From positions 1-29,237 of the IMG/VR virus record IMGVR_UViG_3300042554_002645: DNA of 29,237 nucleotides. The stretch is one strand, 5' to 3'. The stretch is from a virus. Every line of letters starts with the position of its first letter. The stretch's first letter is position 1. This document shows positions 2,723 to 28,787 of this stretch, in pieces. Under the pieces are notes generated by a model that ran no database searches, was not told the origin of the DNA, and worked only from the letters and a program-made list of their open reading frames with translations. The position numbers and the translations under genes are program-made.

Positions 2723-2751
2723 GTAGTGACCTTGTGGTTGGCGGAAGTGGG

Positions 2752-4089: not shown

Positions 4090-4103
4090 TCGGGGCTACT
4101 CCA

Positions 4104-5216: not shown

Positions 5217-5219
5217 CGG

Positions 5220-7934: not shown

Positions 7935-7935
7935 G

Positions 7936-8349: not shown

Positions 8350-8382
8350 GGGAGTCGTCCTGTCGGGTAGGTTGGGCGGACC

Positions 8383-10598: not shown

Positions 10599-10599
10599 G

Positions 10600-11891: not shown

Positions 11892-12110
11892 CTACCAGCC
11901 TCCTGGCATGTAACCGTTGCTACTCCCGGGCGGGCCCTGTGGCCCCTGCGGCCCCTGTGGGCCCTGCGGCCCGGCCGCTCCAGCGGCGCCAGGCGCCCCG
12001 TCGGCGCCAGGCGGCCCACGTTCGCCTTGTACGCCCTGGGCTCCCGGGCTGCCTGTAACCCGGATCGTCCGCGCCGGCGGCGCCTTCGGCCTGGGGATCG
12101 GGCGAGTCAT
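11892..12110 (-). CDS. Collagen-like short protein
   Basis: A 72-residue protein with a basic Pro-rich start ([19 protein letters not shown]). It then has about 15 uninterrupted G-X-Y triplets (from GSPGAQGVQ to GPPGSS, residues about 20-64), including four consecutive GPQ. The end is NGYMPGGW. Such triplets form a collagen triple helix and are used by phages as trimeric rods in fibres. It lies just upstream of the decoration-type gene and its ATG overlaps the stop of the coiled-coil membrane gene (ATGA). A trimeric stalk or surface spike is inferred. The GC-rich triplets are also a slippage-prone repeat at the DNA level. Confidence 0.75.
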
Positions 12111-12442
12111 GGCCGCGGCTTCTGCAGCAACTCGACGATCTGCGCCATCAACTGCTGCACGCTACCGGTCAGCTCAACCCGGGTCTCGCGCAGCTCCTCG
12201 CGCAGCTCCTTGAGGCCGCTGGTCAGCTCGGCGTGGGTCACGCCGGCGGTGGCCAGCTTCTCGAGCGCGTCCATCCGGGTGCCGAGCGTCGTGAATCGGG
12301 CGTCGACGTGTTTCTCGAAGTCCTTCAGCCGGTCGAGGTACGCGTCCTTGATGATCCAGGCGACGAGGCCAACGACGGCGGCTACCAGGTAGCCGACCCA
12401 CTCCATCACGTACCGCCAGGCTGTCTCCTCGGCCGTATTCAC
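12107..12442 (-). CDS. Membrane-anchored coiled-coil protein, XhlA/spanin-like
   Basis: A 111-residue protein if translation starts at the GTG at 12442, which overlaps the previous stop (GTGA). An internal ATG at 12406 would shorten it by 12 residues. One transmembrane helix ([17 protein letters not shown], about 15-31) is followed by a long charged heptad region ([27 protein letters not shown], then [19 protein letters not shown]). The layout 'TM then coiled coil' is like XhlA-type lysis helpers, spanins or tape-linked membrane proteins. I cannot choose between them. The longer reading frame back to 12589 is not used, because that part is better explained by the 46-residue gene in another frame. 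Confidence 0.65.
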
Positions 12443-16235: not shown

Positions 16236-16708
16236 TGCTCTACGTGAAGCACAACGGCCGCTACCGCCTGGCCGAGGACGAGGTGGTCTACGAGGCCTAC
16301 GCCAGGCTCATCGCGACCAAGTTCCAGCGCGGCCGGCAACTCGCCAGCCCGTGCGATACCGAGGACTTCCTCATCGCCCAACTCCAGCACAAGGAGGAAG
16401 AGCACTTCGGGATGGTCTCCCTTGACAACCGGCACCGCATCCTCAGTTACGACGTGCTCTTCCACGGCACAATCGACAACACCACCGTCTATCCCCGGGT
16501 TTTGGTGCGGCATGCGCTCAAAATCAACGCCGCCGCGGTGATTCTCGCCCATAATCACCCTTCCGGCGAGGCAGAACCGAGCGATGCCGACCGGACCATT
16601 ACCCGTCGTATCCGCGACGCACTCGAGCTCGTGGACATCCGCCTGCTCGACCACCTGGTCGTAGGCAGCGGACGCTGTATTTCCCTGGCTGCACGAGGCC
16701 TGCTGTGA
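16235..16708 (+). CDS. RadC-like JAB/JAMM domain protein
   Basis: A 157-residue protein with the RadC-type JAMM signature HNHPSG followed by PSDAD (H106, H108, S110, D119) and a likely catalytic Glu in EEEHFGMVSLD (about 55-56). The C-terminal LLDHLVVGSG is also RadC-like. The helix-hairpin-helix region that precedes this domain in full-length RadC (about 220 residues) is missing. JAMM domains are zinc-dependent peptidases or isopeptidases in other families; RadC itself has no settled activity. ATG at 16235 chosen because GGAGG lies 5 bases upstream and it overlaps the previous stop. Its own stop overlaps the polymerase start (GTGA). Confidence 0.88.
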   Translation: MLYVKHNGRYRLAEDEVVYEAYARLIATKFQRGRQLASPCDTEDFLIAQLQHKEEEHFGMVSLDNRHRILSYDVLFHGTIDNTTVYPRVLVRHALKINAAAVILAHNHPSGEAEPSDADRTITRRIRDALELVDIRLLDHLVVGSGRCISLAARGLL

Positions 16709-18540
16709 CCGACATCCTCTACATCGACTTCGAGACGTACTGGGACAAGGACGTCACGCTCAAGAAGCTGAACTACACCGACTACATCACCCACCCCAAG
16801 TTCGCCGTCCACTGCGCCTCGGCCGTATGGAAAGGCGCCGAACGGTTTCTCGAATCCAGCGACATCCGCCCATTTCTCGAAGACGAGGTAGGCCAAAACG
16901 TCATTGCCGTGGCCCACAACGCCCACTTCGATGGCTACATCGCCCACCACTGCTACAACTGGCACCCGCGTGCCTGGCACTGCACCCAGGCAATGGGTGA
17001 CGCCGTGTTCCAGGGCGCAGTGGCTCGGTCACTCGATGCCCTGCTGCGGGCCTTCGGCCTGCCGCCCAAGCTGGAGATGCCCGACTTCAAGGCGCGGTAC
17101 TGGGGCGATCTTACCGACGAAGAGAAGCACCACATCGAGGAATACGCACGGCGCGACGTCAAGCATCTGCCCGAGCTGTACGAAGGCCTCAAAGCCCAGC
17201 TACCGCAGCGAGAGCTCGACTGCATGGCAGTCACCCTCGACATGTTCATGAAGCCTCGCCTCGAGCTCAACCGGGCGCTCGTCGAAGAAGCCCTGCAGAA
17301 TGCCGAGGGCCTGCGTAGCGAAGTACTCCAGGCCGCCGGCGTGGAAGAGAGCGAAGTGCGGTCGGACGACAAGTTCGCCGAGCTACTGATCGCTGCAGGC
17401 CTGGACAACCCCCCGCGGAAGTGGTCCGCCAAGCAGGACAAGGAAGTCTGGGCGTTCGCCAAGAGCGATGCCGCCTTCATGGCCCTGCAGGAATGCAGTA
17501 ACCCCCGCATCGAACAGCTCGTCGAGGCGCGCCTGGTCTGCAAGAGCAGCATCCACATCACGCGGGCCCAGCGCATGCTAACCATGGCGAAGCAGCCTGG
17601 CCGCAAGCTGGCCGTCTGCCTGAACTACGCCAAGGCGCACACCCTGCGGTGGACTGGCGGCAACAAGATGAACCTTCAGAACCTGGTCAAAGGGTCCAAG
17701 CTACGCCTGGCTATCGAAGCCCCCGACGGCTACGTGCTGGCGGTAGCCGACAGCTCGCAGATCGAGTGCCGCGACCTGGCCTGGCTCGCACGCGAGGATA
17801 AGCTCCTCGGAATCTTCCACGCCAAGGAAGACCCGTACCTCGACCTCGCGCGCGATGTCTTCCAGAAGCCACTCACGAAGAAGGAAAACCCCGTCGAGCG
17901 GTTCGTCGGCAAGACCGCAGTGCTCGGCCTTGGCTTCACAATGGGAGCACCGAAGTTCCAACTGTCTGTGAAGACGCTGTCGCGGAACCAGCTAGGGAAG
18001 GAGCTCGTGATAGAAGACGAGCTCGCGTACCGTGTAGTCGATACCTTCCGCTCGAAGTACTACCGGATACCGGTATTCTGGCAGTTGGCCGAGTGGGCCA
18101 TGAACCACCTGGCCTTCGGGGTAAGCACGAAACCCCTGGGCGACACCGGGCTCGAGGTAGACGCCAACGCGAAGCGCATCCTGTTCCCAAACGGCACCTG
18201 GCTGTACTACCCAGGGATCGGCCCCCGGGAAGACGGTAGCTGGGCCTACCTGGCAACACGCAAGGACCGTGTATACGAGAAACCAATCCATCGGGGCCTC
18301 CTGGTCGAGAACATCGTGCAGAAGCACGCTCGGGACATTATCGTCGAGCAGCTCCTGCGGGTGAACCCCCGGTACCCGGTGGTGATGACGACTCACGACG
18401 AGCTCGTGGCCCTGGTGCCCGAGAAAGAGGCCACGGAAGGCCTCGACTGGATCCTCGACAACATGCGCATCCCACCCGTCTGGGCACACGGGCTGCCCCT
18501 CGATGCCGAGGGCGGCTTCGCCAGGAACTACAGCAAGTAA
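16705..18540 (+). CDS. Family A DNA polymerase with 3'-5' exonuclease
   Basis: Replicative polymerase, 611 residues, without a 5'-3' nuclease domain. Exonuclease domain: DFET (D8, E10), HNAHFD (D76) and YARRD (Y147, D151). Polymerase domain: motif A at D349 (DSSQIECR), motif B with R399, K403, L407 and F411 (the O-helix), and motif C HDE (564-566). By alignment with E. coli Pol I, L407 equals position 762 (Phe in E. coli, Tyr in T7) and F411 equals Tyr766. Motif A has Ser where Tyr is usual. GTG start overlapping the JAB gene's stop; the stop overlaps the next gene (TAATG). Surrounded by other replication genes. Confidence 0.95.
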   Translation: MTDILYIDFETYWDKDVTLKKLNYTDYITHPKFAVHCASAVWKGAERFLESSDIRPFLEDEVGQNVIAVAHNAHFDGYIAHHCYNWHPRAWHCTQAMGDAVFQGAVARSLDALLRAFGLPPKLEMPDFKARYWGDLTDEEKHHIEEYARRDVKHLPELYEGLKAQLPQRELDCMAVTLDMFMKPRLELNRALVEEALQNAEGLRSEVLQAAGVEESEVRSDDKFAELLIAAGLDNPPRKWSAKQDKEVWAFAKSDAAFMALQECSNPRIEQLVEARLVCKSSIHITRAQRMLTMAKQPGRKLAVCLNYAKAHTLRWTGGNKMNLQNLVKGSKLRLAIEAPDGYVLAVADSSQIECRDLAWLAREDKLLGIFHAKEDPYLDLARDVFQKPLTKKENPVERFVGKTAVLGLGFTMGAPKFQLSVKTLSRNQLGKELVIEDELAYRVVDTFRSKYYRIPVFWQLAEWAMNHLAFGVSTKPLGDTGLEVDANAKRILFPNGTWLYYPGIGPREDGSWAYLATRKDRVYEKPIHRGLLVENIVQKHARDIIVEQLLRVNPRYPVVMTTHDELVALVPEKEATEGLDWILDNMRIPPVWAHGLPLDAEGGFARNYSK

Positions 18541-18776
18541 TGGACGCCTACATCATGCTGCGTTGCCCTAGCTGCGCCGGGCCAGAGCACGTCCTGCTGG
18601 GCGAGCTCGGCTCTTTCACCTGGTTCCGCTGCCGCCACTGCGGGATCCAATTCCACCTCGACAACACGGACCGGAGCCTGTATGGACTTGATGATAGACC
18701 TGGAGACCCTGGGAACGCGAGCGGGAGCCCCAGTGATCACGATCGGGGCAGTACTTTTCGACCCGCTGGCGACTGA
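18540..18776 (+). CDS. Small zinc-ribbon protein
   Basis: A 78-residue protein whose first half is a zinc ribbon: LRCPSC ... RCRHCGIQFHLD (Cys pairs at about 9/12 and 31/34). The ATG overlaps the polymerase stop. The last 32 residues (GLDDRPGDPGNASGSPSDHD...) overlap the exonuclease gene by 95 bp in another frame and are low in complexity, so only the ribbon part is likely to be functional. Possible polymerase or transcription accessory factor. Confidence 0.6.
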   Translation: MDAYIMLRCPSCAGPEHVLLGELGSFTWFRCRHCGIQFHLDNTDRSLYGLDDRPGDPGNASGSPSDHDRGSTFRPAGD

Positions 18777-19326
18777 CACCGTCGAGGGGCTCCTGTCCAG
18801 GAGCTTCTACCGGGCGATCAGCATCACCGAGGCCGTCAACAACTCGGACGGCGTGGCCGGCGACACCCTCGAGTGGTGGTTCCGGCAGAGCGACGAAGCC
18901 ATCAAGGCCCTGGTCGCCGACCCCATCTACAGCACCAGCCAGGCCCTCGAAGCCTTCTACCACTACGCCGAGAGCCGGGGAATGGGCTGGACTGCCGAGT
19001 TCTTCCCGGAGCATCCGCACCTCCCCAAGGTCGGCCGGGTCTGGGCCAAGAGCCCCGACTTCGACTGCAAGATGATGGAGTCGCTCTGGCGGCGCTTCCC
19101 CAAGTGGTACGCCTGGCCGTACCGCTACAACCAATACCGCTGCGTCAGGACGCTGATGGACCTGGCCTGGCCCTCGGGGCCAGGGGGGCGGCCGATCTTC
19201 GACGTGGGGGCCAAGCACGACGCCCGCGTCGACGCCGTCGAGCAGGCCCTGACCGTCCAGGCCGGCCACCGCGCCCTGGGACTCAGCGAAAGCGTCCAGT
19301 TTTTCAACTACAAGGTGAGCCCATGA
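18682..19326 (+). CDS. 3'-5' exonuclease, Rv2179c-like DEDDh family
   Basis: A 214-residue nuclease. Motif I is MIDLETLGT (D6, E8), followed by APVITIGAVLFDP. The middle contains EWWFRQSDEAI and VWAKSPDFDCKMME (motif II acidic residues), and the last motif is KHDARVDAVEQ (H...D). This order and the 'DLETLGT...PVI.IGAV' opening fit the exoribonuclease Rv2179c-like domain (related to RNase T and ExoVIII types found in phages). A 3'-5' trimming activity on DNA or RNA is expected. Start has GGAG 7 bases upstream. The stop overlaps the next gene (ATGA). Confidence 0.88.
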   Translation: MDLMIDLETLGTRAGAPVITIGAVLFDPLATDTVEGLLSRSFYRAISITEAVNNSDGVAGDTLEWWFRQSDEAIKALVADPIYSTSQALEAFYHYAESRGMGWTAEFFPEHPHLPKVGRVWAKSPDFDCKMMESLWRRFPKWYAWPYRYNQYRCVRTLMDLAWPSGPGGRPIFDVGAKHDARVDAVEQALTVQAGHRALGLSESVQFFNYKVSP

Positions 19327-19724
19327 CCGTCAAAGCATGCCAAGAGGCAGACCTTAAAGTCCGCGCCTCCGACATCGACGTCTCCGCCGGCAAGATCTGC
19401 ATCCAGCTACCGGCGAAGCTCAACTTCCTCTTCGACGAGGAGGTCGAGCAGTTCCTGAACCGGGTCGGCATGAAGACCCTCCCGTTCAAGCTCGAAGAGG
19501 AACTCGGTATCGACCCCAGCGAATGGCTGACTCCCTACAACACTGGGCCACTAATCGAGATCGACCTGGAAGACTGCCCCAAGCTCGCCGGCCTGACGTC
19601 CTCAGACACTGAGTACGAAGTCACTTCGATCGTGGCCACGTACATCGACTACCTCGTCACCGAGTCACTGTGGCGCTGGGTGTCGATCATCGGCGGCCGT
19701 GAGGACCCCTACAAAGCACCCTGA
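19323..19724 (+). CDS. 133-residue acidic protein, last gene of replication block
   Basis: Starts MTVKACQEADLKVRASDIDV at an ATG overlapping the exonuclease stop. Acidic, with an alternating alpha/beta look (KLNFLFDEEVEQFLNRVGMKTLPFKLEEELG, then LIEIDLEDCPKLAGLTSSDTEYEV). No family recognised. The stop is followed 2 bp later by the first copy of a palindrome that also marks the other end of the gene-free region. Confidence 0.7.
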   Translation: MTVKACQEADLKVRASDIDVSAGKICIQLPAKLNFLFDEEVEQFLNRVGMKTLPFKLEEELGIDPSEWLTPYNTGPLIEIDLEDCPKLAGLTSSDTEYEVTSIVATYIDYLVTESLWRWVSIIGGREDPYKAP

Positions 19725-19725
19725 A

Positions 19726-19741
19726 TTCTTGCACCGCAAGA
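19726..19741. promoter_or_regulatory. Operator-like palindrome, copy 1
   Basis: TTCTTGCACCGCAAGA contains TCTTGC-ACC-GCAAGA, with 6-bp perfect arms and a 3-bp spacer. It begins 2 bp after the stop of the preceding gene. The same site, differing by one base in the spacer, recurs at 20208. Confidence 0.6.
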
Positions 19742-19860
19742 AGAAGCAAGCCAGGCCCGCCGAAGGCGTCTCAAAAGTTCTCAACTAACTTTTTGGGGGA
19801 GGGGTTCGGAGCTGGACTGGATTCTGGCGCGCCCAACAGGTGCCATTTCCCCTATATATT

Positions 19861-19896
19861 AGAAGAAGAAGAAGAAGAAGAAGAAGAAGAAGAAGA
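19861..19896 (+). repeat. AGA trinucleotide microsatellite, 12 perfect copies
   Basis: Twelve uninterrupted AGA triplets (36 bp), flanked by TATATATT on the left and TATAGAGAAATATA on the right. A pure purine tract of this length can form triplex or unwound DNA and is rare in phage genomes. Not inside any gene. Confidence 0.95.
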
Positions 19897-20207
19897 TATA
19901 GAGAAATATACTTTAGCTTTTTGAGCCCCCTAGCGAAATCAACGACTTAGCCACTAAACTTTCCCTCACGGGCTTCTTGATCTCAAGCAGATTTGGTTGA
20001 CCGGCGCTGGCGTTCGGGGTTTGGGGTTCTCCCGCCAAAAATTTGGCTACTGCATCACAGCAATCTTAGCTGCACAGCAACATCAACCTTGTAAGATTTC
20101 CCGACACATTTCCGCACTGCAGCACGGATTTCACAACTTTCCTTTGTCCACCTAGTGGCCGAGTCACTCAGTCACTGCGTCGCAGCACGCGTGATTCTGA
20201 GCCCATT

Positions 20208-20223
20208 TTCTTGCACTGCAAGA
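20208..20223. promoter_or_regulatory. Operator-like palindrome, copy 2, next to ribosome site
   Basis: TTCTTGCACTGCAAGA, with the same 6-bp arms as copy 1. Its right arm runs into AGAGG, the ribosome site of the gene at 20231, so binding or hairpin formation would affect expression of the rightward unit. Confidence 0.6.
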
Positions 20224-20230
20224 GGCACCA

Positions 20231-20362
20231 ATGGACCCCAATGACACCCCCGACTACGAGCGCTGGTGGGACCCCACCCAGGACGCCAACTACGAGCACA
20301 AGTTGGCCGATGACCACGATCGCAGTGACGCAGTGAAGGAGGCGCAGCGATGGCCCCAGTGA
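20231..20362 (+). CDS. 43-residue acidic protein, first gene of right arm
   Basis: Reads MDPNDTPDYERWWDPTQDAN, then YEHKLADDHDRSDAVKEAQRWPQ. Very acidic and Trp-rich for its size. GAGG is 5 bases upstream of the ATG. It overlaps the next gene by 13 bp and that gene's strong ribosome site lies inside it. Position directly after the control region suggests early expression. Function unknown. Confidence 0.6.
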   Translation: MDPNDTPDYERWWDPTQDANYEHKLADDHDRSDAVKEAQRWPQ

Positions 20363-20688
20363 CCACGACCAAGCTCGGCAAGATCCTCAAGGCCTGGGTC
20401 GGCTTCGGCGGCTACCAGGACGCCCAGTTCGGCTACGGCTTCGAGCTGGGCGGCACCGACTGGTCTACCCAGGACTTCTGGGGCTTCTGGGCGAACGAGC
20501 CCAACGACGACAGTACCTGGGGCTCCCTTGACCAGAACACCGCCTGGGGGAAGGCAAACCGAGACCTCATCGCGGCTTTGGTCAAGGCCAAAGCCACAAG
20601 GCTCGAGGAGCTTCGCGACAAGCCCGTCCAGGCCATCTTCGTCAACGACCGGCTCGTCTCCTGGCGGATCCTCGAGGAGGTCCTGTGA
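20350..20688 (+). CDS. Conserved phage protein, function unknown
   Basis: A 112-residue protein. The opening KILKAWVGFGGYQDAQFGYGFELGGTDWSTQDFWGFWA and the end PVQAIFVNDRLVSWRILEEVL fit a pattern I associate with a small conserved phage protein: 'G.GGYQ.AQ.G..F.L.G..W...DFWG' followed by 'KPV...F..N.L.SWRIL.EVL'. No activity is known to me. GAAGGAGG is 7 bases upstream. Stop overlaps the next GTG start. Confidence 0.75.
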   Translation: MAPVTTTKLGKILKAWVGFGGYQDAQFGYGFELGGTDWSTQDFWGFWANEPNDDSTWGSLDQNTAWGKANRDLIAALVKAKATRLEELRDKPVQAIFVNDRLVSWRILEEVL

Positions 20689-21281
20689 GCACGTACGGCA
20701 CCATCTACGACAAGTGCGGCGAGCCCATCTACACGTCTGCTTTCGACTGGCCCAGGATGGTCAACCTCCTGGAAGAAGCTGTTGCGGCCAGAGTCATCCT
20801 CGAAAGCGCCGACCTCCACGGAACCTACCTCGGCTACGGCAATTTCCGTCAGGCAGAATTCTCGAACGCCATTTTCGATGACGCCGAGGCCATCGGGACC
20901 AGCTTCAACGAAGCGTGCCTCGAGGGGGCGTCTTTCCAGAGAACCGCCCTCCGCGGCGCCTGCTTCTACGGGGCTAACTTGGCGGGGGCCAATTTTCTGG
21001 GCGCCATCGATCTGCATCGTGCCCGATTTGACCCCCGTACCATCATCGACGAAGACACCAGAGGCCTGGACGGGATCTTCGTCGCCGGGCCTGTCGGTTC
21101 CCGCGACGACCAGGTGCAGTTTGTCCGCATTGGCCCTGAGATCTACGTCAAGGCCGGGTGTTTCTCGGGCACGCTCGAGCAGTTCAAGCGAGCGGTTTAC
21201 GAGACCCATGGCGACGAGAGCATCCACTACTACAACTACGAGTCGCTCTGGCACGTCGCCGAGTCGCGCTTGACAGCCTAG
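20685..21281 (+). CDS. Pentapeptide-repeat protein
   Basis: A 198-residue protein starting at GTG with GAGGAGG 4 bases upstream. Residues about 35-116 are pentapeptide repeats of the A(D/N)LxX/x(F/L)xxA type (ILESADLHGTYLGYGNF, AEFSNAIFDDAEAIGTSF, ALRGACFYGANLAGANFLGA). These build a right-handed square beta-helix. The C-terminal part (VGSRDDQVQFV...VKAGCFSGTLEQFKRAVYETHGD) resembles a tail found on other phage pentapeptide proteins. Some members of this repeat class mimic DNA and bind gyrase; whether this one does cannot be told from the sequence. Confidence 0.88.
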   Translation: MSTYGTIYDKCGEPIYTSAFDWPRMVNLLEEAVAARVILESADLHGTYLGYGNFRQAEFSNAIFDDAEAIGTSFNEACLEGASFQRTALRGACFYGANLAGANFLGAIDLHRARFDPRTIIDEDTRGLDGIFVAGPVGSRDDQVQFVRIGPEIYVKAGCFSGTLEQFKRAVYETHGDESIHYYNYESLWHVAESRLTA

Positions 21282-21289
21282 GAGGCAGC

Positions 21290-21745
21290 ATGAGCGAATG
21301 TTCCTGGGAGAAGGAGTTCTACCCGATCGAGGCGGGCACTATTGCCACCCGATACAGCCGCGGTGAGGCCACCCTGGTTGACCTCGTCGAGCATAGCCTC
21401 AACAAGTGGATTGGGCTGCGCCGCCACAACCTCGAGAAGCACGACGTACTCGAGATCAACCCCTGGGGGTATATAGACCCACCAATTCTGGTGACCGCTT
21501 CGACGTGCTCACTCTGCCAGGCCTTTTATCAACCTTTCAACGAATATGATGATGACCCTTGCCAGAAGTGCCCGCTTTACCAGGCTCGTGGGAATATTCC
21601 TTGCGATGCCGAGCGGGATGACGAAGAGCTCGCCCCGTATTACGAGTTCTTCCAGGGAGACGAGACTCCAGAGCCCATGATTTCCTGGCTCCGCAAGACC
21701 CTTGACTTCGTCACTGAGCAACAGCGCAACAAGGAACCCCGCTGA
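21290..21745 (+). CDS. Cysteine-containing 151-residue protein
   Basis: Starts MSECSWEKEFYPIEAGTIAT with TAGGAGG 6 bases upstream. A possible zinc site reads CSLCQAFYQP...DPCQKCPLYQARGNIPC (about 75-106): two CxxC pairs plus a fifth Cys. The N-terminal half is helical (LVDLVEHSLNKWIGLRRHNLEKHD). I recall similar small phage proteins with a 'C.LC......C..CPL....G..C' pattern but no assigned function. TGATG overlap with the next gene. Confidence 0.7.
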   Translation: MSECSWEKEFYPIEAGTIATRYSRGEATLVDLVEHSLNKWIGLRRHNLEKHDVLEINPWGYIDPPILVTASTCSLCQAFYQPFNEYDDDPCQKCPLYQARGNIPCDAERDDEELAPYYEFFQGDETPEPMISWLRKTLDFVTEQQRNKEPR

Positions 21746-21936
21746 TGAGCAACGAGTTCTTCGCCACCATCATGACGACCATCGTCGTCACTGGCGCTTG
21801 CATCGTCTTCGGGGCGCTTATCTCGGTCTTCGCTCACGACGACATCGCCCAGGACTGCGAGCGCTACGGCGCTTTCTACGTCGGCGACGACCGCTACGAA
21901 TGCCGGCCGGCGACGTTCAACCAGCCGGAGCCGTGA
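21745..21936 (+). CDS. Single-pass membrane protein, 63 residues
   Basis: MSNEFFATIMTTIVVTGACI, then VFGALISVFAHDD: one transmembrane helix (about 6-30). A short soluble end with two Cys follows (CERYGAFYVGDDRYECRPATF). Start overlaps the previous stop. The C-terminal 'C...G.fY.gd..Y.C.p' suggests a disulphide if it faces the periplasm. Function unknown. Confidence 0.7.
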   Translation: MSNEFFATIMTTIVVTGACIVFGALISVFAHDDIAQDCERYGAFYVGDDRYECRPATFNQPEP

Positions 21937-22152
21937 GTGACAGGGAGTAACCCATGCCCCTGGGAAGGCAAGTACCAGAAAAGCGCTGAAGAGGCCACAC
22001 GCCTCTTGTGCAACTTGGTCACTGCGTCACTGGGCGACAGCCCCAATGAGCAACTCCTGACCTGGTACATCAAACACCGGCAGATCGATCTCCAGCGAGC
22101 CGAAGCCGACATCGCCCGCGCCAAAGATCTACTGAAAGGCTGGAAACCATGA
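21937..22152 (+). CDS. 71-residue helical protein
   Basis: Uses GTG at 21937, directly after the previous stop; no ATG is available in frame near the start. Product MTGSNPCPWEGKYQKSAEEA, then a helical body LLTWYIKHRQIDLQRAEADIARAKDLLKG. A TCACT octamer pair (22017-22034) lies inside the coding sequence. Function unknown. ATGA overlap with the next gene. Confidence 0.6.
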   Translation: MTGSNPCPWEGKYQKSAEEATRLLCNLVTASLGDSPNEQLLTWYIKHRQIDLQRAEADIARAKDLLKGWKP

Positions 22153-22349
22153 CCACGTCACTGCGTAACTGCCTCCGTAATGTCCGGGCAACTTTGCTGC
22201 TCATGCCGAATCCTGCCAGCATTCGCGACAGCAGTAACCCCCGACACGGCGACTACTACGACGAAGACTACGCCTACTGGTACAACGGCGAGCGCATCGA
22301 CTTGCTCGAGGAGATCAACATGGTGCTTGGTTCGGAGGACAACGTGTGA
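22149..22349 (+). CDS. 66-residue small protein
   Basis: Reads MTTSLRNCLRNVRATLLLMP, then NPASIRDSSNPRHGDYYDEDYAYWYNGERIDLLEEINMVLGSEDNV. The Tyr/Asp-rich middle and acidic end are unusual. Start overlaps the previous stop (ATGA). It contains GGAGGA near its 3' end, which serves as the ribosome site for the next tiny gene. Function unknown. Confidence 0.6.
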   Translation: MTTSLRNCLRNVRATLLLMPNPASIRDSSNPRHGDYYDEDYAYWYNGERIDLLEEINMVLGSEDNV

Positions 22350-22438
22350 AGGCCATCGGCGGCATCCTGTGGGGGCTCTTGCTCTCCACCATCATCATCA
22401 CGTTCTTGAGCGCACTCGCGAGGATTTTCATCTCATGA
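22346..22438 (+). CDS. 30-residue membrane peptide
   Basis: Reads MKAIGGILWGLLLSTIIITF, then LSALARIFIS: almost entirely one hydrophobic helix. GTG start 8 bases after GGAGG, overlapping the previous stop (GTGA), and its own stop overlaps the next ATG. The perfect fit into the overlapping gene string supports a real gene despite its length. Could act as a toxin-like or regulatory membrane peptide; function unknown. Confidence 0.6.
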   Translation: MKAIGGILWGLLLSTIIITFLSALARIFIS

Positions 22439-22683
22439 CCATGAAACTCTGGTTACTCAAGCCTCTCAGCGAGAAGCCCTGGGTCCCCTGGTACGACAAG
22501 TGCTTCGGTATGGTCGTCCGGGCTGCCACTGAGCCCGAGGCCCGCCGCTGGGCCAGTATGTACGGCGGTGACGAGGGCGAGGAACCCTGGCTCAACCCCA
22601 GCGACAGTACCTGCGTCGAGCTCCTCGCCGACTACCACGGCGCCGAACCTGGCCCAATCCTCATCGACATCCACTCCGCATGA
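22435..22683 (+). CDS. Conserved small phage protein (KLWLLKP type)
   Basis: An 82-residue protein, MTMKLWLLKPLSEKPWVPWY, then DKCFGMVVRAATEPEARRWASMYGGDEGEEPWLNPSDSTCVELL. The pattern 'MK.WLLkP....PW.PWYDK.FG.VVRA..E.EAR..A....GDEG...W' is one I recognise from many phage early regions. Its function is unknown to me. The ATG at 22435 overlaps the preceding stop. Confidence 0.75.
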   Translation: MTMKLWLLKPLSEKPWVPWYDKCFGMVVRAATEPEARRWASMYGGDEGEEPWLNPSDSTCVELLADYHGAEPGPILIDIHSA

Positions 22684-22904
22684 ACGCCGACAACTACATC
22701 TACGTCGACGAGAGCGGGCCAGCCATTGCGGTCTACGCAGCCAGCGGGGAGGTCCCGGCTCGCGTGTTCGTCGTCGGGGAAGAGAACCGCCAGTACGAGC
22801 AAGACCAGGTCTTCGAGGACATCCACGATGCCCGCCGCTATGCCGAGCGTTATGCCGCCGCCCTGGCGACCACGCTCGGTTGCGACTGGGGCACTAACTA
22901 CTAG
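22680..22904 (+). CDS. 74-residue acidic protein
   Basis: Reads MNADNYIYVDESGPAIAVYA, then ASGEVPARVFVVGEENRQYEQDQVFEDIHDARRYAERYAAALATTLGCDWGTNY. Looks like a short beta-sheet followed by a helix. Start overlaps the previous stop. Last gene before a 150-bp gap with hairpins. Function unknown. Confidence 0.65.
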   Translation: MNADNYIYVDESGPAIAVYAASGEVPARVFVVGEENRQYEQDQVFEDIHDARRYAERYAAALATTLGCDWGTNY

Positions 22905-23057
22905 GAACCGCTCGCGCGCCCGGAGGGCTCCGGGATAAGCCCCGAACGAGCAGAGTGACTACTGAAGGTTCGCGAACGGCGTGTCCCAGTCACGTCCGTA
23001 AGCCCTCTGGCCCGGAGGTGACTTAGTCACAGGGCAACCACATCACAAGGAGGCTTC
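22905..23057 (+). other. Hairpin-rich gap
   Basis: Contains a compact hairpin CCCGGAG-GG-CTCCGGG (22919-22934) without a T-tract, the palindrome GTTCGCGAAC (22968-22977) and TCACT-type half units near 22991 and 23021. It could be a transcript processing or pausing site, or the leader of the unit starting at 23058. AAGGAGG of that gene lies at its end. Confidence 0.4.
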
Positions 23058-23249
23058 ATGAGCCAGTTCCAGCTTGACACTCAGGATCGCATCCGCCACC
23101 ACGCCGACAAGCTCCATGACCTTGTCAAGGAGCTGCGCCTACACGACCTCACCTTCGATCAGCGGTGGATCTCGCTCGGCGCCACCCAGCTCCAGCTCGG
23201 GATCATGTGCCTCACCCGCGGCGTTCTCGGCAACCAGGACAGGTTCTAA
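23058..23249 (+). CDS. Possible Acb2/Tad1-like helical-hairpin protein
   Basis: A 63-residue all-helical protein (MSQFQLDTQDRIRHHADKLH...). Its end, FDQRWISLGATQLQLGIMCL then TRGVLGNQDRF, resembles the 'RWlsig.tdlQ.G.M.L.RaV....F' ending that I associate with phage proteins in the Acb2/Tad1 helical-hairpin family. These proteins sequester cyclic nucleotide signals of CBASS or Thoeris defence. The resemblance is from memory and covers a short region, so this is a candidate only. AAGGAGG is 6 bases upstream. TAATG overlap with the next gene. Confidence 0.5.
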   Translation: MSQFQLDTQDRIRHHADKLHDLVKELRLHDLTFDQRWISLGATQLQLGIMCLTRGVLGNQDRF

Positions 23250-23677
23250 TGACCCAGCGCGACCCCAACGGCATCAGCCAGCACGCGCCAGGCGCCAAAC
23301 TCGACGCCGGCAAGACCCCAATCGTCAAGGGCTTCCTGGCCCAGTTCCCGCACGCCTGTACCGAAGTCGCCGAGATCTCCGCCTACGGCGCCCAGAAGTA
23401 CACCTGGGGCGGCTGGCGCTCCGTGCCCGACGCGAACACGCGCTACCTCGACGCTCTTGGTCGGCACCTCATCATGTACCTCTGCGGCGAAGACCTCGAC
23501 CGCGAGTCGCAGCGCATGCACCTGGCCCACATGGCCTGGAATGCGCTTGCCGTACTCGAGCTCAGCCTCACTGAGATCGAAGAAGCCTACATTCCGGCCA
23601 CTGCCCCCGACAAGATCGTCACTCAACTCGACGACAGTTGGGAGATCGTCAAGGCCACCGAGTTCCACAACGAGTAA
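23249..23677 (+). CDS. dATP/dGTP diphosphohydrolase-like protein (DUF5664 type)
   Basis: A 142-residue protein. The sequence KLDAGKTPIVKGFLAQFPHA, EVAEISAYGAQKYTWGGW, RYLDALGRHLIMYLCGEDLD and HLAHMAWNALAVLELS matches a widespread phage domain: 'K.DaGK.p...gfl..FP.A..eVA.vS.yGA.KY..gGW...RY.DAl.RHl.....GE..D.eS...HlAH.AWNALA.LEL'. It is annotated as an N-terminal dATP/dGTP diphosphohydrolase domain. The conserved E, H and D residues suit a metal-dependent nucleotide hydrolase, which would adjust dNTP pools. Start overlaps the previous stop. Confidence 0.8.
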   Translation: MTQRDPNGISQHAPGAKLDAGKTPIVKGFLAQFPHACTEVAEISAYGAQKYTWGGWRSVPDANTRYLDALGRHLIMYLCGEDLDRESQRMHLAHMAWNALAVLELSLTEIEEAYIPATAPDKIVTQLDDSWEIVKATEFHNE

Positions 23678-23687
23678 GGAGTCCCTC

Positions 23688-24107
23688 ATGGGAGACCGTG
23701 CCCTCATCCAGTTCGTCAGTTGGCCTTCTTCCGACCCCAGCCTCATCAAGAAACGGTGCGAGGTCCAGGACGGCAGCTACAGTCCCGTCGTCTACCTCCA
23801 CTGGATGGGGGAAGACGTTCCTCGCCTTCTCTCGGCGCTGCAGATCCTCATGGGGGACCGCCGGGGCGACGTCGACTACACCGCCGCCCGTTGTATCGGG
23901 CTTGCCTGCCAAAAGACTCCCGGCAACCTGAGCGTAGGTGTTTTCAACTCAGGCAACCGCGTCTGGTGGGGCCAGGGCGACACCCACGGCGACGCCGGCG
24001 TCATCCTCGTGAACGTTCACCCCAACCACTGGTTCGAGACCCACTGCGAGGGCGGCTACATGACCCCCGAGCTCATCAAGGAGGGCATTGTCCATGGTAT
24101 CGCCTGA
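23688..24107 (+). CDS. 139-residue protein of unknown function
   Basis: Starts MGDRALIQFVSWPSSDPSLI with AAGGAG 7 bases upstream. Sequence SPVVYLHWMGEDVPRLLSAL, DVDYTAARCIGLACQK and GDAGVILVNVHPNHWFETHCEGGY suggests an alpha/beta fold. 'DRA.I.F.......SPvVYLHW.G..V..LL..L......R..DV.Y.aaR.ig......g..s.G..N' is a pattern I have met in phage hypothetical proteins. No catalytic motif can be named. Overlaps the next gene by 14 bp. Confidence 0.72.
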   Translation: MGDRALIQFVSWPSSDPSLIKKRCEVQDGSYSPVVYLHWMGEDVPRLLSALQILMGDRRGDVDYTAARCIGLACQKTPGNLSVGVFNSGNRVWWGQGDTHGDAGVILVNVHPNHWFETHCEGGYMTPELIKEGIVHGIA

Positions 24108-24519
24108 GCCCAACCTGCCCACGATGCTCATCGCCGCCATGCGGAAGTACGGCATCGCCCGCATCGAAGTCGAGTACAGCGGCTACGGCGACAGCGGCCA
24201 GATCGATTACGTCTACTTCTACGGCACCGGCGGCAAGGACTTCGATGCTACCGGCCTCACGGTCCCCGGCTACCAGAAGAATTACGACTGGCAGACCAAA
24301 GATTACATCGTCCACAAGGAGGACTACCTTACCGAGCTTGCCCAGGACGTCGTCTGGTATTGGCTCGAAGAGGCCCACGGCGGCTGGGAAATCGACGAGG
24401 GCTCCGACGGCAAGTACGCGCTCACCCTCGACGAGAACGTTCTTGCCGTCGCTAACACGCACAACAACCACTTTACCCAGACCGACACGGAAGAGTCCGA
24501 TTTCGAGGTGACGCCATGA
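24094..24519 (+). CDS. DUF6878-like protein
   Basis: A 141-residue acidic protein. The core LPTMLIAAMRKYGIARIEVEYSGYGDSGQIDYVYFY and the helical segment LTELAQDVVWYWLEEAHGGWEIDEGSDG fit a family I know as DUF6878: 'gI..i.veY.GsGDsGqI..v' followed by 'd..w..le..h.GWe.neGa.G'. Function unknown. ATG at 24094 with AAGGAGG 9 bases upstream. The stop overlaps the next gene (ATGA). Confidence 0.68.
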   Translation: MVSPEPNLPTMLIAAMRKYGIARIEVEYSGYGDSGQIDYVYFYGTGGKDFDATGLTVPGYQKNYDWQTKDYIVHKEDYLTELAQDVVWYWLEEAHGGWEIDEGSDGKYALTLDENVLAVANTHNNHFTQTDTEESDFEVTP

Positions 24520-25733
24520 TCAGCTTCACGACGCCTGGTCTCATCGACATGCGGGCGTTCACGCACTTCGGTGTGAACGCCAAGGAGAACACCAACCCCA
24601 TCGGCTACTTCGGCACCGGCCTCAAGTACGCCCTGGCGGTCCTGGCCCGGCACGACGCCCGCGTTACCATCAACCGCGGCGGCCAGGATTACACGCTCCG
24701 CGTCCGCCCCGGCAACATGCGCGGCAAGGAGTTCTCGTTCATCGACCTCGTCAGCGGCGACGAGGTCATCGAGTTGCCGTTCACCACTGAGCTCGGCAAG
24801 AACTGGGAGCTCTGGATGGCGTTCCGGGAGCTCTACTCGAACACCCTCGACGAGAACGGCATGGTTCTCGAAAAGATGCCGAGTGTTGACGAGTCCAACG
24901 TGACGGTCATCGTCGTCGACCACCCCGAGTTCGATGCGATCTGGGCCGAGAAGGGCGAGTACTTCCTTGATACGAAGGGTCGCACTCCGCTCGCCAGACT
25001 CAAGGATATCGAGATCTACCGCCGTTGCACTGCTCAAGGCGCCATCTTCATGCAGGGGATCCGCGTCGGCACCACCGACGGCGACTCCCTCTTCACCTAC
25101 AACCTCACGAAGAACAAGCGTCTTACCGAAGATCGCGCGCTCGCCGACGACTCGGCTTTCCGTATGACCATCGTCGGCCAGCTCCGCGAACTCGATAGCA
25201 CGCACGAGAAGTTTCTTCGTGAGATCCTCGTCGCCCCTTCGCGGAGCTATGAGGGCCGACTTGATCACCGCTTCGGCCTCAACTACGACAAGGCGACAGA
25301 CTTCTACAATGGCTTCGTCTCCAACCTCGTTCGTGATCGCGTTGCGGGCCTCAACCCGACCCTGGCGGGCTACGTCAGGCTCTACAACATCGATGGCGGG
25401 GTCGCCCCTGACGAGGTCCAGCCCAGCGAGCTCGATACCAGGCGGCTCACCAAGGCCATCTCTTTCTGCAAGTCCCTCGGCTTCCTGGTCGACAAGTACC
25501 CCATCAGGGTTTTTGCCCCGGGGGACTCCAGTCTGCTTGGCATGGCCATCGACGGCCAGATCTGGGTCTCGGCCCAGAGTTTCCGCCAGGGCACCAAGAA
25601 CCTGGCCGGTACCCTGATCGAGGAGTACATCCACCTCGAGCATGGGCTCCAGGACGAGACCCGCGGCCTGCAGAACTTCCTGGTCGACACCGTCGTCTCC
25701 TTCGGTGAGCGCATCATCGGGGAGCCCCTGTGA
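24516..25733 (+). CDS. GHKL-like ATPase with rearranged motifs and EExxH segment
   Basis: A 405-residue protein. Residues 27-46 read NPIGYFGTGLKYALAVLARH, like the glycine-rich ATP-lid motif (GxFGxGxKxA) of GHKL/Bergerat ATPases. Residues about 101-115 read MAFRELYSNTLDENG, like the Mg-binding N-box (RELxxNxxD, E105, N109, D112). In canonical GHKL proteins the N-box comes first, so the order here is reversed, as in a circular permutation. The C-terminal region has TLIEEYIHLEHGLQDETR (E369, E370, H373, H376), which could be a zincin-like metal site (EExxHxxH). Function unknown; ATP-dependent proteolysis or host interference is speculation. Start overlaps the previous stop; stop overlaps the next GTG. 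Confidence 0.65.
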   Translation: MISFTTPGLIDMRAFTHFGVNAKENTNPIGYFGTGLKYALAVLARHDARVTINRGGQDYTLRVRPGNMRGKEFSFIDLVSGDEVIELPFTTELGKNWELWMAFRELYSNTLDENGMVLEKMPSVDESNVTVIVVDHPEFDAIWAEKGEYFLDTKGRTPLARLKDIEIYRRCTAQGAIFMQGIRVGTTDGDSLFTYNLTKNKRLTEDRALADDSAFRMTIVGQLRELDSTHEKFLREILVAPSRSYEGRLDHRFGLNYDKATDFYNGFVSNLVRDRVAGLNPTLAGYVRLYNIDGGVAPDEVQPSELDTRRLTKAISFCKSLGFLVDKYPIRVFAPGDSSLLGMAIDGQIWVSAQSFRQGTKNLAGTLIEEYIHLEHGLQDETRGLQNFLVDTVVSFGERIIGEPL

Positions 25734-25930
25734 AAGAAAGCGTGGAGGCCGTCACCCTTCGGTTGCGCCAGGAAGGCCGCACCGACGACTACATCGCGTC
25801 TTACCTGAGAGGCTACTTCTCCGATGCCCTCTTCGCGCCGCCTTCTCGCCCCCCACCGGCCTCCAAGGTTTCACGCAAGAAAGGCTCGGCTGCGGAAGGC
25901 CGGGATACTGATCCGGGTCTTCCGGGTTAG
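25730..25930 (+). CDS. 66-residue protein
   Basis: GTG start overlapping the previous stop. Reads MKESVEAVTLRLRQEGRTDD, then YIASYLRGYFSDALFAPPSRPPPASKVSRKKG. A short helical domain ('Y.....LRGYFSD') followed by a Pro/Lys-rich tail. The tail overlaps the next candidate frame and has relaxed codon use there. Function unknown. Confidence 0.6.
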   Translation: MKESVEAVTLRLRQEGRTDDYIASYLRGYFSDALFAPPSRPPPASKVSRKKGSAAEGRDTDPGLPG

Positions 25931-26342
25931 CCGCTACGAGATCTTCGTCCACGGTGTCCTGGTCGTCTCCCGGCTGCACCGTATCCCCCACCACAAGGTG
26001 GAGTCACTTCGTCCGGTCGTGATCCTCTGGGGCAAGGCGCTCCAGGAGGCCGAGCGCATTCATGCCCTACTTCGGCAGTGGCACAACATCAACAGGGGTA
26101 TGTATGGTGCTGTTACGTGGAAAGTACCTCGTTCTGGCTGCCGAGCTGACGGCGCTTATTGCGCTACAGGTGGTCTATCTGGTAAAACGCCGGCGCAAGA
26201 AGCCGCGCGGGGGGACTGCCCATTCTGTCAACGGGCAGCCGGTCGTCTCCGCGCAATCGCTGAACTCCCAGTCGCCCCGCCGGTCCGAGGAGCCCGAATT
26301 CCGTTATACGCCTCCGCCTGCGGCAGCCCCGCCTACGACTGA
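25824..26342 (+). CDS. Overlapping reading frame, partly convincing
   Basis: A 172-residue frame. Its central part (RVFRVSRYEIFVHGVLVVSR, HHKVESLRPVVILWGKALQE, AERIHALLRQWHN; bases about 25915-26090) has GC-ending codons and looks like a real protein. No other gene covers bases 25931-26103. After about 26104 it reads Cys/Gly-rich sequence with relaxed third positions while a membrane protein in another frame looks better. Either the genes truly overlap or a small sequence error or frameshift separates a short gene from its real stop. Low confidence. Confidence 0.4.
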   Translation: MPSSRRLLAPHRPPRFHARKARLRKAGILIRVFRVSRYEIFVHGVLVVSRLHRIPHHKVESLRPVVILWGKALQEAERIHALLRQWHNINRGMYGAVTWKVPRSGCRADGAYCATGGLSGKTPAQEAARGDCPFCQRAAGRLRAIAELPVAPPVRGARIPLYASACGSPAYD

Positions 26343-26346
26343 GTAA
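26104..26346 (+). CDS. Single-pass membrane protein with Pro-rich tail
   Basis: Reads MVLLRGKYLVLAAELTALIA, then LQVVYLVKRRRKKPRGG. One transmembrane helix (about 8-27) is followed by a basic stop-transfer cluster (KRRRKK) and a disordered Ser/Pro-rich tail ending TPPPAAAPPTTE. AGGGG precedes the ATG. Third positions here are more GC-rich than in the competing frame. Function unknown. Confidence 0.55.
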   Translation: MVLLRGKYLVLAAELTALIALQVVYLVKRRRKKPRGGTAHSVNGQPVVSAQSLNSQSPRRSEEPEFRYTPPPAAAPPTTE

Positions 26347-26358
26347 GGTGGGTCGCCT

Positions 26359-26433
26359 GTGAGAACCAACCCGAACATCCTTCCTGGCACAGGGCCAGGG
26401 CCGGGACTTGCCTTCCAGAAAGACAAGGGATGA
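26359..26433 (+). CDS. 24-residue leader peptide candidate
   Basis: GTG-initiated frame (MRTNPNILPGTGPGPGLAFQ, then KDKG) with AAGGTGG 8 bases upstream. Its TGA overlaps the ATG of the primase-helicase. That overlap may help initiation of the large gene, whose own ribosome site is poor. The GPG repeats are encoded by a short GGGCCAGGGCCGGG repeat. Weak evidence. Confidence 0.3.
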   Translation: MRTNPNILPGTGPGPGLAFQKDKG

Positions 26434-28787
26434 GATTCGATTTTCTCTCGGCGGCCCTGCCGCTGACCAAGGCCTTCAACCTGCGTGACGACGGGACCTA
26501 CGAATCCCAGGCCTACCCGCTGGTCCGGAACATGACTTCGACCTCGGTCGAGGCCGCCGGCCCTGCGGAGCTGCTCCAGGCGATCCAGGAACACGGCGCC
26601 TCCGGCAACTGTCTGCTCAAGGGGCTCCTCAAGGACCCCATCAGCAACCAGTCCCGGGCCGGCATGACCGACCCTCGGACACCTACTCACTGGATCGTCT
26701 TTGACCTCGACCGGATCGCCGGCGCCTTCGCCAGCGCCGAGGCGTTCATTGCCGCCCTGCCTCCGGCGTTCCACGACGTCACCTACATCCACCAGTACTC
26801 GGCGTCCTACGGCATTACCAAGACCACCTACCGGGCCCATCTCTTCTTCCTCCTGGCCCGTCCTGTCTCGCCGCTTGTCCTCAAGGAGTGGTTCGCCGGG
26901 CTCTGCTACCACACTGAGCCACTGCGTCACTTGGTCACGTTGAGCACGAACAACCTCGCGCTCAGCCTGCCGGTCGACCACACCGTGGCCCAGAACGACA
27001 AGCTCATCTACATCGCTCCGCCCGACTGCCGCAACTTCACCGACCCCGTCACCGAGCGGCTGTCCCTCGTGGCCAAGGGCGCTGACTTCGTCCAGTACGA
27101 CTTTCCCGCCCTGGTCCCGTCGCTCTCCGCGGCCCACGACGAGCTCCTCGCCGAGCTGCGCGAGAAGGCGGGGCTCCCGGCGCGCAAGCCGAAGCTCAAG
27201 CTCCTGAACGGCGAGGAGGTCCTGACGAACCCGGACGGCGTAGTCGTCACCGACATCAAAGAGCAGAACGGCTACATCCGCCTCAACCTCAACGGTGGCG
27301 ACTCCTGGGCCTACTTCTTCGACCCGGAGAACCCGCGCCTCGTCAAGAACTTCAAGGGGGAGCCGAACCTGCTCCTCACCGACATCGCCCCGGACCTGTA
27401 CCGAAAGGCGCGCGACATGATGCCGGCGCCGACCAAGAAGACTTCGTACGTCTTCCGTGACCCGGCGTCCGATCAGTGGTACGCCGGCGTCTACGACCCG
27501 TACCTCCGGGCCTGGGAGCTGCTGGCTCCCATCGGCAGCTACGAGAAGATCAAGGCGTTCTTCGCCACCCGCGGCGGCATTGCCCCGGACGCCGAGCAGA
27601 TCCCGGACTGGGACTACGAGTTCCGCCCGTACGAAGACGAGGTCTGCGACCCGCCGCGGAAGTTCGTCAACCGCTTTCAGCCGACCGACTTCATGCGGCT
27701 CGCTCCCAGGAACAACACTTTGCCGGCAACTGCCGCCAAGATCCTCAAGAGCGTCGTCGGCGGGGACGAAATCGTCATGGACGCCCTCATCAACTGGCTC
27801 GCGTGCATCTTCCAGCACCGCACCAAGATCGGCACGGCCTGGGTCCTGTCCGGCGTCCAGGGCACCGGCAAGGGCCTGCTGATCCACGAGCTGCTGCGCC
27901 CGCTCTTCGGCCCTACCTGCGTGGCCAAGCAGCTCCACCACTTCTCGGACCAGTTCAACGCCTTCCTCGAGACGTCCCTCATCGTCAACGTCGACGAGGT
28001 GCGGCTCGACTCCTCCCGCGGCGAGTCGGCCAAGCTCCTGGCCATGGTGAAGAACCTTATCACCGAGCCCACGGTCGACATCCGGTCGATGCGCCAGAAC
28101 AGCCGCCAGGCCAAGTCGTACTCGAACTTCATCTTCACGTCGAACGACTACGACGCGATGCGCATCGACCGCACCGACCGCCGCTTCAACATCGCGCCGC
28201 GCCAGGAGACCCCGATCTCCGTCACCCAGGCCGAGGTCGACGCCCTCAAGCTCGAGCTCTTCGACTTCGCCGGGTTCCTTGCCTCTTACCCGGCAGACCT
28301 CGACCGGGCCCGGCGCCCCATCGAGACGGAGGCCAAGGAAATCATGCGCAAGCACGGGCTCGACAGCGTCGAGCAGCTCGTCGACGCCGTCCTCGGCGGC
28401 GACCTGTCCTTCGTCATCCGCATGCTCTCCTTCGGGATGGACTTCCGCGAGTCCGGCGTCTGGGTCGAGGTCGACAAGGTCGTCCGCAGATGGGCCGAGG
28501 CTGCCAACACCGGCAAGGTGTGCGTCATCCGCCGCCGCGATCTCTACATGCTGTACCGCTACGGCTACGACGCGAACGCGAAGCCGCAGAGGTTCAACCG
28601 CATGCTCGAACACAAGAACTTCCCGCCCGTCAGCCAGTGGCTCGACGAGCTGTCTGGCCGCTACGTGCTGGGCACCGTCACGGTGTGGAAGTGCGATCCC
28701 GAAGTCCTGCAGGAGTACGCCAGCTCGAAGGAAGAGGACACCAAGCCTGCCACCATCGTCCAGTTTCCCCGCGCTGCATCCGAATGA
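26430..28787 (+). CDS. AEP primase fused to SF3/D5-like helicase
   Basis: A 785-residue replication protein that should prime and unwind DNA at the fork. The N-terminal half resembles archaeo-eukaryotic primases: HWIVFDLDRI (D92, D94), SASYG (about 124-128) and YRAHLFFLL (H137). The C-terminal half is a D5/DUF5906-type helicase: region RLAPRNNTLPATAAKILKSV, Walker A SGVQGTGKG (about 474-482), Walker B LIVNVDEV (D522, E523), sensor NFIFTSND (about 566-573) and a likely arginine finger in DRTDRRF. A winged-helix-like end follows. It pairs naturally with the polymerase and exonuclease encoded 8 kb to the left. The ATG overlaps a possible leader peptide; the stop overlaps the next ATG. Confidence 0.92.
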   Translation: MRFDFLSAALPLTKAFNLRDDGTYESQAYPLVRNMTSTSVEAAGPAELLQAIQEHGASGNCLLKGLLKDPISNQSRAGMTDPRTPTHWIVFDLDRIAGAFASAEAFIAALPPAFHDVTYIHQYSASYGITKTTYRAHLFFLLARPVSPLVLKEWFAGLCYHTEPLRHLVTLSTNNLALSLPVDHTVAQNDKLIYIAPPDCRNFTDPVTERLSLVAKGADFVQYDFPALVPSLSAAHDELLAELREKAGLPARKPKLKLLNGEEVLTNPDGVVVTDIKEQNGYIRLNLNGGDSWAYFFDPENPRLVKNFKGEPNLLLTDIAPDLYRKARDMMPAPTKKTSYVFRDPASDQWYAGVYDPYLRAWELLAPIGSYEKIKAFFATRGGIAPDAEQIPDWDYEFRPYEDEVCDPPRKFVNRFQPTDFMRLAPRNNTLPATAAKILKSVVGGDEIVMDALINWLACIFQHRTKIGTAWVLSGVQGTGKGLLIHELLRPLFGPTCVAKQLHHFSDQFNAFLETSLIVNVDEVRLDSSRGESAKLLAMVKNLITEPTVDIRSMRQNSRQAKSYSNFIFTSNDYDAMRIDRTDRRFNIAPRQETPISVTQAEVDALKLELFDFAGFLASYPADLDRARRPIETEAKEIMRKHGLDSVEQLVDAVLGGDLSFVIRMLSFGMDFRESGVWVEVDKVVRRWAEAANTGKVCVIRRRDLYMLYRYGYDANAKPQRFNRMLEHKNFPPVSQWLDELSGRYVLGTVTVWKCDPEVLQEYASSKEEDTKPATIVQFPRAASE

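Follow-up and report, generated by a model that had tools for sequence, protein, structure and literature searches.

A predicted GHKL ATPase of phages with a relocated N-box and a zincin-like domain of altered metal site

Background

A gene at positions 24516-25733 of a 29,237-nucleotide stretch of viral DNA (IMG/VR record IMGVR_UViG_3300042554_002645; the whole stretch is referred to as the window) raises the question of how a protein comes to carry the ATP-site motifs of GHKL (Hsp90/MutL-type) ATPases out of order, and to what use. To our knowledge, every description of the Bergerat ATP site has given it the same order along the chain. The original prediction was of a circularly permuted ATPase joined to an EExxHxxH segment that might be a metal-binding helix of a peptidase. 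A different reading is favored here, with a probability of roughly 0.7: the protein would belong to a phage-specific branch within a mobile family of fusions between a GHKL ATPase and a zincin, a branch in which the N-box was relocated and the zincin site changed later. It may act as an ATP-gated factor that interacts with the host.

Results and Discussion

The gene and its surroundings

The ORF is complete, with an ATG start and 405 codons specifying 405 amino acids. Its ATG overlaps the stop codon of the upstream gene, and its stop codon overlaps the next possible start, a GTG at 25730. The upstream gene (24088-24519, + strand) encodes a DUF6878 protein (PF21798, E 1.5e-13), which was not seen beside the gene in other family members. 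Positions 16705-28787 of the window constitute a replication region, with genes for a family A DNA polymerase (16705-18540), an Rv2179c-like exoribonuclease (18682-19326) and a primase/helicase with DUF5906 (26430-28787). The protein encoded by 23165-23677 (+ strand) has the N-terminal domain of a dATP/dGTP diphosphohydrolase (PF18909, E 1.3e-22); the PHROG that it matches is labeled 'endolysin; inhibits RNA polymerase', which looks misleading. Long ORFs are found on both strands of 141-12392, and eight that were tested had no PHROG match at E 1e-3.

A Pfam search with the window protein gave no match, no Pfam model was common to members of its family, and PADLOC models matched neither the protein nor four of its relatives. 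The protein matched PHROG 8203, a family of unknown function, over residues 1-405. It is a member of this family at about 39% identity, with the same motif order and the same EExxH site as the others (YuA gp29, M6, MP1412, AN14_30 and more) and no difference of substance. Labels in the PHROG 8203 records are hypothetical, 'HATPase', 'ATP-binding protein' and 'hydrolase, metallopeptidase'; parts of the family have therefore been noticed before, in single records labeled 'HATPase' or 'metallopeptidase', and the open-access full-text literature yielded no description of a permuted or relocated-N-box GHKL ATPase or of the PHROG 8203 family. The features of the gene are listed in Table 1.

Table 1. 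Features of the ATPase-zincin gene, in window coordinates
Feature	Coordinates	Strand	Evidence
Whole gene: predicted relocated-N-box GHKL ATPase with zincin-like domain (PHROG 8203)	24516..25733	+	ORF; phrog_8203 E 1.5e-84, full length; 72-sequence alignment; AF2 mean pLDDT 91.1, pTM 0.77
Motif II-like strand and turn, residues 4-11, FxNxGxID replacing DxGxG	24525..24548	+	Conservation of F4, N6, G8, D11; alignment to canonical motif II
Motif III (glycine-rich lid/helix), residues 29-39, IGYFGTGLKYA	24600..24632	+	Invariant I29, G30, F32, G33, G35, K37; profile match to IGKFGxGLK, E 4.9e-12 and 2.1e-9
Relocated N-box, residues 97-113 (WELWMAFRELYSNTLDE), predicted helix 99-112	24804..24854	+	Invariant W97, R104, E105, N109, D112, E113; aligns to canonical N-terminal N-box, E 1.4e-6 and 1.4e-5; helix in model
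Motif IV strand, residues 128-135, T130 invariant	24897..24920	+	Equivalent of GTExxL in canonical relatives
Transducer-like motif FTYNLTKNKRLTEDR, residues 193-207	25092..25136	+	Invariant E205, R207; aligned with YN...NRER / YN...DRDR of canonical relatives
Zincin-like domain, residues 296-405	25401..25730	+	AF2 pLDDT 93, pTM 0.83; Foldseek minigluzincins; profile match to HExxH domain of relatives, E 1.7e-9 / 4.3e-11
Altered metal site: E369, E370, H373 (25620-25634), D380 (25653-25655), Q386 (25671-25673)	25620..25673	+	Conservation in 72 + 33 sequences; aligned with H437, E438, H441, D448, E454

A GHKL ATPase domain with its motifs out of order

Conservation was counted in an alignment of 72 viral homologs, most of which share 32-40% identity with the window protein. 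G30, G33, G35, K37, R45, R104, E105, N109, D112, E113, T130, E205, R207, E369, E370, H373 and D380 are present in all 72, as are F4, I29, F32 and W97; G8 and Q386 (71/72 each), N6 (69/72) and D11 (66/72) are nearly invariant. The seven residues that the original prediction had singled out (G30, G33, G35, E105, N109, E370 and H373) are all among the invariant ones, and its motifs lie in the ORF where they had been read: GYFGTGLKYA at residues 30-39, FRELYSNTLDE at 103-113 and TLIEEYIHLEHG at 366-377. The glycine motif preceding the N-box by about 65 residues, which had been remarked upon from this one sequence, is a property of 158 distinct relatives.

Three sequence hallmarks of a GHKL domain were found. 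The N-box, with its catalytic Glu and Mg-binding Asn, is represented by R104, E105, N109 and D112 (72/72 each), the GxxGxG/K helix of motif III by the invariant core IGxFGTGLKYA, and the GT strand of motif IV by T130 (72/72), which aligns with GTExxL. Motif II reads NxGxID instead of DxGxG; its Asp is kept in the plasmid relatives and has also been lost in the canonical-order proteins of PHROG 6077. With Asn in place of the adenine-contacting Asp, nucleotide binding or specificity may differ. The order of motifs is II, III, N-box, IV in the 158 proteins, not N-box, II, III, IV. The NCBIfam model for the N-terminal ATP-binding domain of sacsin, a GHKL domain, matched 55 of the 72 members with a best E of 1.7e-4, below the cut-off of the model, and searches of PDB sequences with the full profile and the C-terminal profile gave nothing credible. 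Judged by its homologies, the window protein is a predicted GHKL ATPase.

Two canonical-order families were available for comparison. PHROG 6077 (Serratia phage ChuuTotoro, Ab18 ORF34, 4MG, Vibrio phage 1.158.O and others) shares motif III, motif IV and the transducer YN...DR with the window protein, is collinear with it over 250 residues and occupies the same locus in Mesyanzhinovviridae, but has its N-box at the N-terminus and in most members no zincin site. The GHKL-HExxH fusions of plasmids, archaea and phages (e.g. Croceicoccus WP_047824690.1 and Moorella phage MTATph1 CDS0173), labeled 'ATP-binding protein', gave the best full-length profile match and have both domains in the same relation; they differ in their canonical motif order, DxGxG motif II and HExxH...D...E site. 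Scans of viral sequences with single canonical proteins as query found nothing.

When the 72-row profile was aligned with that of PHROG 6077 (hhalign), one collinear alignment (q1-302/t45-302, E 9.2e-14) skipped the N-box (residues 80-125), and a second match (q83-112/t7-36, E 1.4e-4; 1.4e-6 for the N-box segment alone) aligned residues 83-112 with the N-terminal end of the canonical proteins. The alignment with the plasmid and bacterial family was likewise collinear (q26-389/t82-468, E 1.5e-19), and the N-box alone matched it with E 1.4e-5 and a score of 35.3, whereas 200 column shuffles reached no more than 20.6. Segment 125-240, containing the motif IV strand with T130 on the GT, was collinear with both families (E 7e-6 and 1.7e-7). 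Since the N-box finds its match and the remainder is collinear in both canonical families, the N-box unit has moved from the N-terminus to a place between motifs III and IV, and the order along the chain is II, III, N, IV where the canonical proteins have N, II, III, IV.

The circular permutation originally proposed would involve the whole ATPase domain, cut between the N-box and motif II so that the N-box becomes the last element. This would account for motifs II and III coming first and the N-box after them, and a duplication route to it exists in the family, one plasmid protein having three tandem GHKL units; however, the GT strand of motif IV is part of the ATPase core and follows the N-box in collinearity with the canonical relatives, as does the transducer. 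A plain permutation was rejected on these grounds, only the N-box segment having moved between collinear flanks, and a true permutation of the domain is quite improbable. The probability that an unrelated protein, one without a Pfam match, resembles a GHKL ATPase by chance is negligible, being refuted by the invariance of the motif residues in 72 homologs and by profile homology to proteins that match the HATPase_c_3, sacsin ATP-binding, GyrB and MutL models.

Relocation of the N-box could have begun with a tandem duplication of N-II-III; once the first N and the second II-III had been lost, the observed order would result. A plasmid of Alkaliphilus sp. B6464 (L160:443-3757) encodes a single protein of 1104 amino acids in which three canonical GHKL units in tandem precede an HEEVH zincin at the C-terminus. 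Such modules therefore do duplicate, and this protein is a possible model for the origin of the motif shuffling. A Bergerat ATP site would thus have been re-threaded with its residues kept, and both canonical-order relatives and a possible intermediate (L248, see below) are on hand for comparison; the gene exemplifies a well-known enzyme fold rearranged and reused by phages.

The structure predicted from the 72-row alignment by AF2 falls below a pLDDT of 50 only in the predicted lid loop (residues 27-31). Compared with viral models by Foldseek, its best matches include canonical phage GHKL proteins (E 1.9e-8 and 1.2e-6) and KVP40 RIIA (5e-3). In the PDB, the leading matches of the full model are minigluzincins; of GHKL proteins only gyrase appears, and not credibly (E 0.91, probability 0.04), as expected of a sequential aligner confronted with a re-threaded chain. 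Fold comparison, which had been suggested as a check on both domains, gave minigluzincins for the zincin part, and for the GHKL part matches among viral models (E 1.9e-8) and none of credibility in the PDB.

A zincin-like domain with two ligands changed

The isolated segment 296-405 was modeled as a helix, three strands and two helices (H10-25, E35-38, E47-50, E53-57, H65-81, H88-106), which is the core that defines zincins (PMC5512222). Its Foldseek matches were the minigluzincins selecase and abylysin, with probabilities of 0.96-0.99 and modest scores (E 0.0065-0.02, TM about 0.5). A profile of the last 110 residues found a canonical-order protein with a DxGRG motif II and a C-terminal HELIH in two Pseudomonadota genomes, relatives of which are encoded by bacterial and archaeal plasmids and by Moorella phage MTATph1; one relative (L129) matches the Pfam models HATPase_c_3 (3.4e-5) and SprT-like (0.006). 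The C-terminal profile matches these canonical relatives with E 1.7e-9 to 4.3e-11, free of gaps over the site. By model and profiles, the C-terminal EExxH segment is accordingly a zincin-like domain.

In the canonical relatives the site consists of H437, E438, H441, D448 and E454, invariant in all seven sequences aligned; the conserved set in the window protein is E369-E370-H373-D380-Q386. In zincins, two His and a Glu of the next helix bind zinc, while the Glu of HExxH serves as the base (PMC5512222). With these roles applied to the alignment, the first and third ligands have changed (H to E and E to Q), and the base, the second His and the Asp have been kept. The minigluzincins (selecase, abylysin, jannalysin) and SprT-like zincins have the same C-terminal fold and the same position of the active-site helix, but HExxH and Glu where the window family has EExxH and Gln. 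The EExxHxxH segment of the original prediction holds in its EExxH portion, E369, E370 and H373 being invariant, and fails in its second His, as H376 is found in only 41/72. Similarly, a metal-site helix is present as supposed, within a zincin-like domain, and its site reads EExxH...Q and not HExxH...E; peptidase activity can therefore not be assumed.

The altered site goes with the relocated N-box. Among 219 distinct proteins, 158 have a relocated N-box: 142 of these have EExxH, 15 have no site (as determined by script, and including some truncated proteins) and one, L248, has HExxH. The Asp is present in all 142 EExxH proteins, and the position of Q386, which corresponds to E454 of the relatives, is occupied by Q in 140 and by K in 2. 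Canonical-order proteins have HExxH (28 by script, and L194 by eye) or no site (32), never EExxH at this position. L194 had been picked out as a canonical-order protein with EExxH, a regex artefact; its real site reads HEFSH. A set of 33 divergent sequences shows no exception at any of the five positions, and the invariance extends to a 595-kb phage and Bacteroidota. Nine proteins with a relocated N-box (L242-L247, L014, L107 and L108) have no recognizable zincin site; in these the C-terminal domain was apparently lost or exchanged for another, perhaps repeatedly.

The paired change from H to E and from E to Q, invariant over such distances, points to either an altered metal chemistry or a stable pseudo-enzyme. 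The domain has close to an even chance of being a pseudo-peptidase, in which the altered site binds a partner or a structural metal and only the ATPase acts. The equivalent locus of a sister subfamily holds a canonical-order GHKL protein without a zincin site (Ab18 ORF34), so a role shared by the two needs no peptidase; yet a scaffold alone would hardly account for E370, which is the catalytic base in zincins, being invariant. An active metallopeptidase with unusual ligands (E369, H373, and D380 or Q386, with E370 as the base) would explain why the general-base Glu and second His are kept, why five residues are invariant over great distances and why the paired changes preserve charge. It is nevertheless possible only at well under even odds, given that known zincins use the first His, and the Glu on the following helix, as ligands (PMC5512222) and that some family members have lost the site altogether.

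Single origin and probable order of events

In a tree computed without the zincin columns, all relocated proteins fell on one side of one branch with support of 100/99, and two further trees supported the group with 100/100 and 100/99; the relocation is taken from these phylogenies to have a single origin. L248 (the ORF containing AHEYFHHKSKSGDETRAFE) is the only relocated-N-box protein found with the full ancestral site, HExxH...D...E. Together with L015, it was placed outside the clade of the other 28 relocated proteins (97/89, again without the zincin columns), and, branching at the base of this group, it may be an evolutionary intermediate. The N-box relocation therefore probably preceded the change of the metal site, an order based on the one sequence of L248.

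According to the preferred reading, the ancestor would have had a Bergerat-type ATPase in the order N-box, II, III, IV, then a transducer segment and, at the C-terminus, an HExxH zincin. In the phage lineage the N-box would have moved between III and IV, changing the connection of the chain while keeping the residues of the ATP site, and in a later step the zincin site would have gone from H,E,H..D..E to E,E,H..D..Q.

A shared locus and a possible role

In YuA (Rabinowitzvirinae), the relocated gene follows gp28, the product of which is small and has one likely membrane segment; the canonical-order ORF34 of Ab18 (Bradleyvirinae) follows ORF33. As gp28 and ORF33 are homologous (E 5.6e-15), the relocated and canonical forms share a locus between sister subfamilies. 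This suggests that their role is interchangeable and resides in the ATPase and transducer part, ORF34 having no zincin site. The exchange makes a shared function directly testable in laboratory phages. The small gene for a membrane protein found upstream occurs only in Mesyanzhinovviridae-like phages; TM-like neighbors lie upstream in 13/68 and downstream in 7/69, and neither clustering of neighbors nor a search with the neighbors in the window revealed a partner gene conserved across the whole family. In one record (L008:1597-1962, AN14_29), the product of this small upstream membrane-protein gene is labeled 'putative hydrolase, metallopeptidase', apparently in error.

Two canonical-order GHKL-HExxH genes have suggestive neighbors. 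One, on pSR56 of Salinibacter ruber (L157:2462-3904), lies within a type I restriction operon, between the genes for the specificity and restriction subunits; the other, on a plasmid of Natrinema zhouii (L158:2483-3877), is two genes from a Piwi-domain gene. These surroundings hint at a role in mobile-element conflict, although PADLOC, as noted above, gave no match.

The protein is proposed to bind ATP through E105, N109 and the glycine lid, upon which the N-terminal domain would close; the transducer segment (R207; YN...EDR) would pass the closure on to the C-terminal domain, which with its altered metal site would bind a protein partner and may or may not cleave it. Since the gene belongs to the early region of the phage, its product most likely targets a component of the host, much like T4 rIIA. 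The rIIA family of phages combines an N-terminal GHKL ATPase with a variable C-terminus (PMC7824862). The likeness to the window protein is a weak fold match, that of KVP40 RIIA, with no sequence match, and function and C-terminal domain are not comparable here; a host-interaction role of the rIIA kind is tentatively put at somewhat less than even odds. The fuller proposal, in which the re-threaded ATPase and a zincin with ligands of swapped character and new metal chemistry would form an ATP-gated metalloenzyme directed against a host target, is rather unlikely.

A factor in DNA replication or topology would fit the proximity of primase, DNA polymerase and nucleotide-metabolism genes, here and in YuA-like phages, and MutL and gyrase are GHKL ATPases. 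Such a role is unlikely, however, for a protein that has no Toprim, endonuclease or other DNA-handling domain, whose family also occurs in quite different phages without a fixed neighbor, and whose canonical-order relatives are found on plasmids, in one case in a restriction operon and in another near a Piwi gene.

Distribution and selection

Relatives were found by tblastn in 72 phage records, most of them of Pseudomonas and Bordetella Mesyanzhinovviridae (YuA gp29, M6, MP1412, AN14_30), the others including phages of Stenotrophomonas, Synechococcus, Bradyrhizobium, Brevundimonas and Dinoroseobacter as well as two metagenomic phages of very large size. Scanning viral contigs with a profile confirmed about 390 matching stretches, sequences being taken from the best 80 of the 390, and bacterial assemblies contributed 20 loci, from Pseudomonadota to Bacteroidota, at least some of which should be prophages or carried-over phage contigs. 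The family is widespread in phages and not a local oddity. Searches that expect the canonical motif order miss it, and hundreds of phage genes thus remain 'hypothetical'. Its median dN/dS was 0.13, with a maximum of 0.25 (21 close pairs), and it is under purifying selection. Copies broken by a stop or frameshift were observed in a viral contig (L058:4001-5194) and in the assembly of a Paraburkholderia symbiont (L104:6001-7197); intact copies are common elsewhere.
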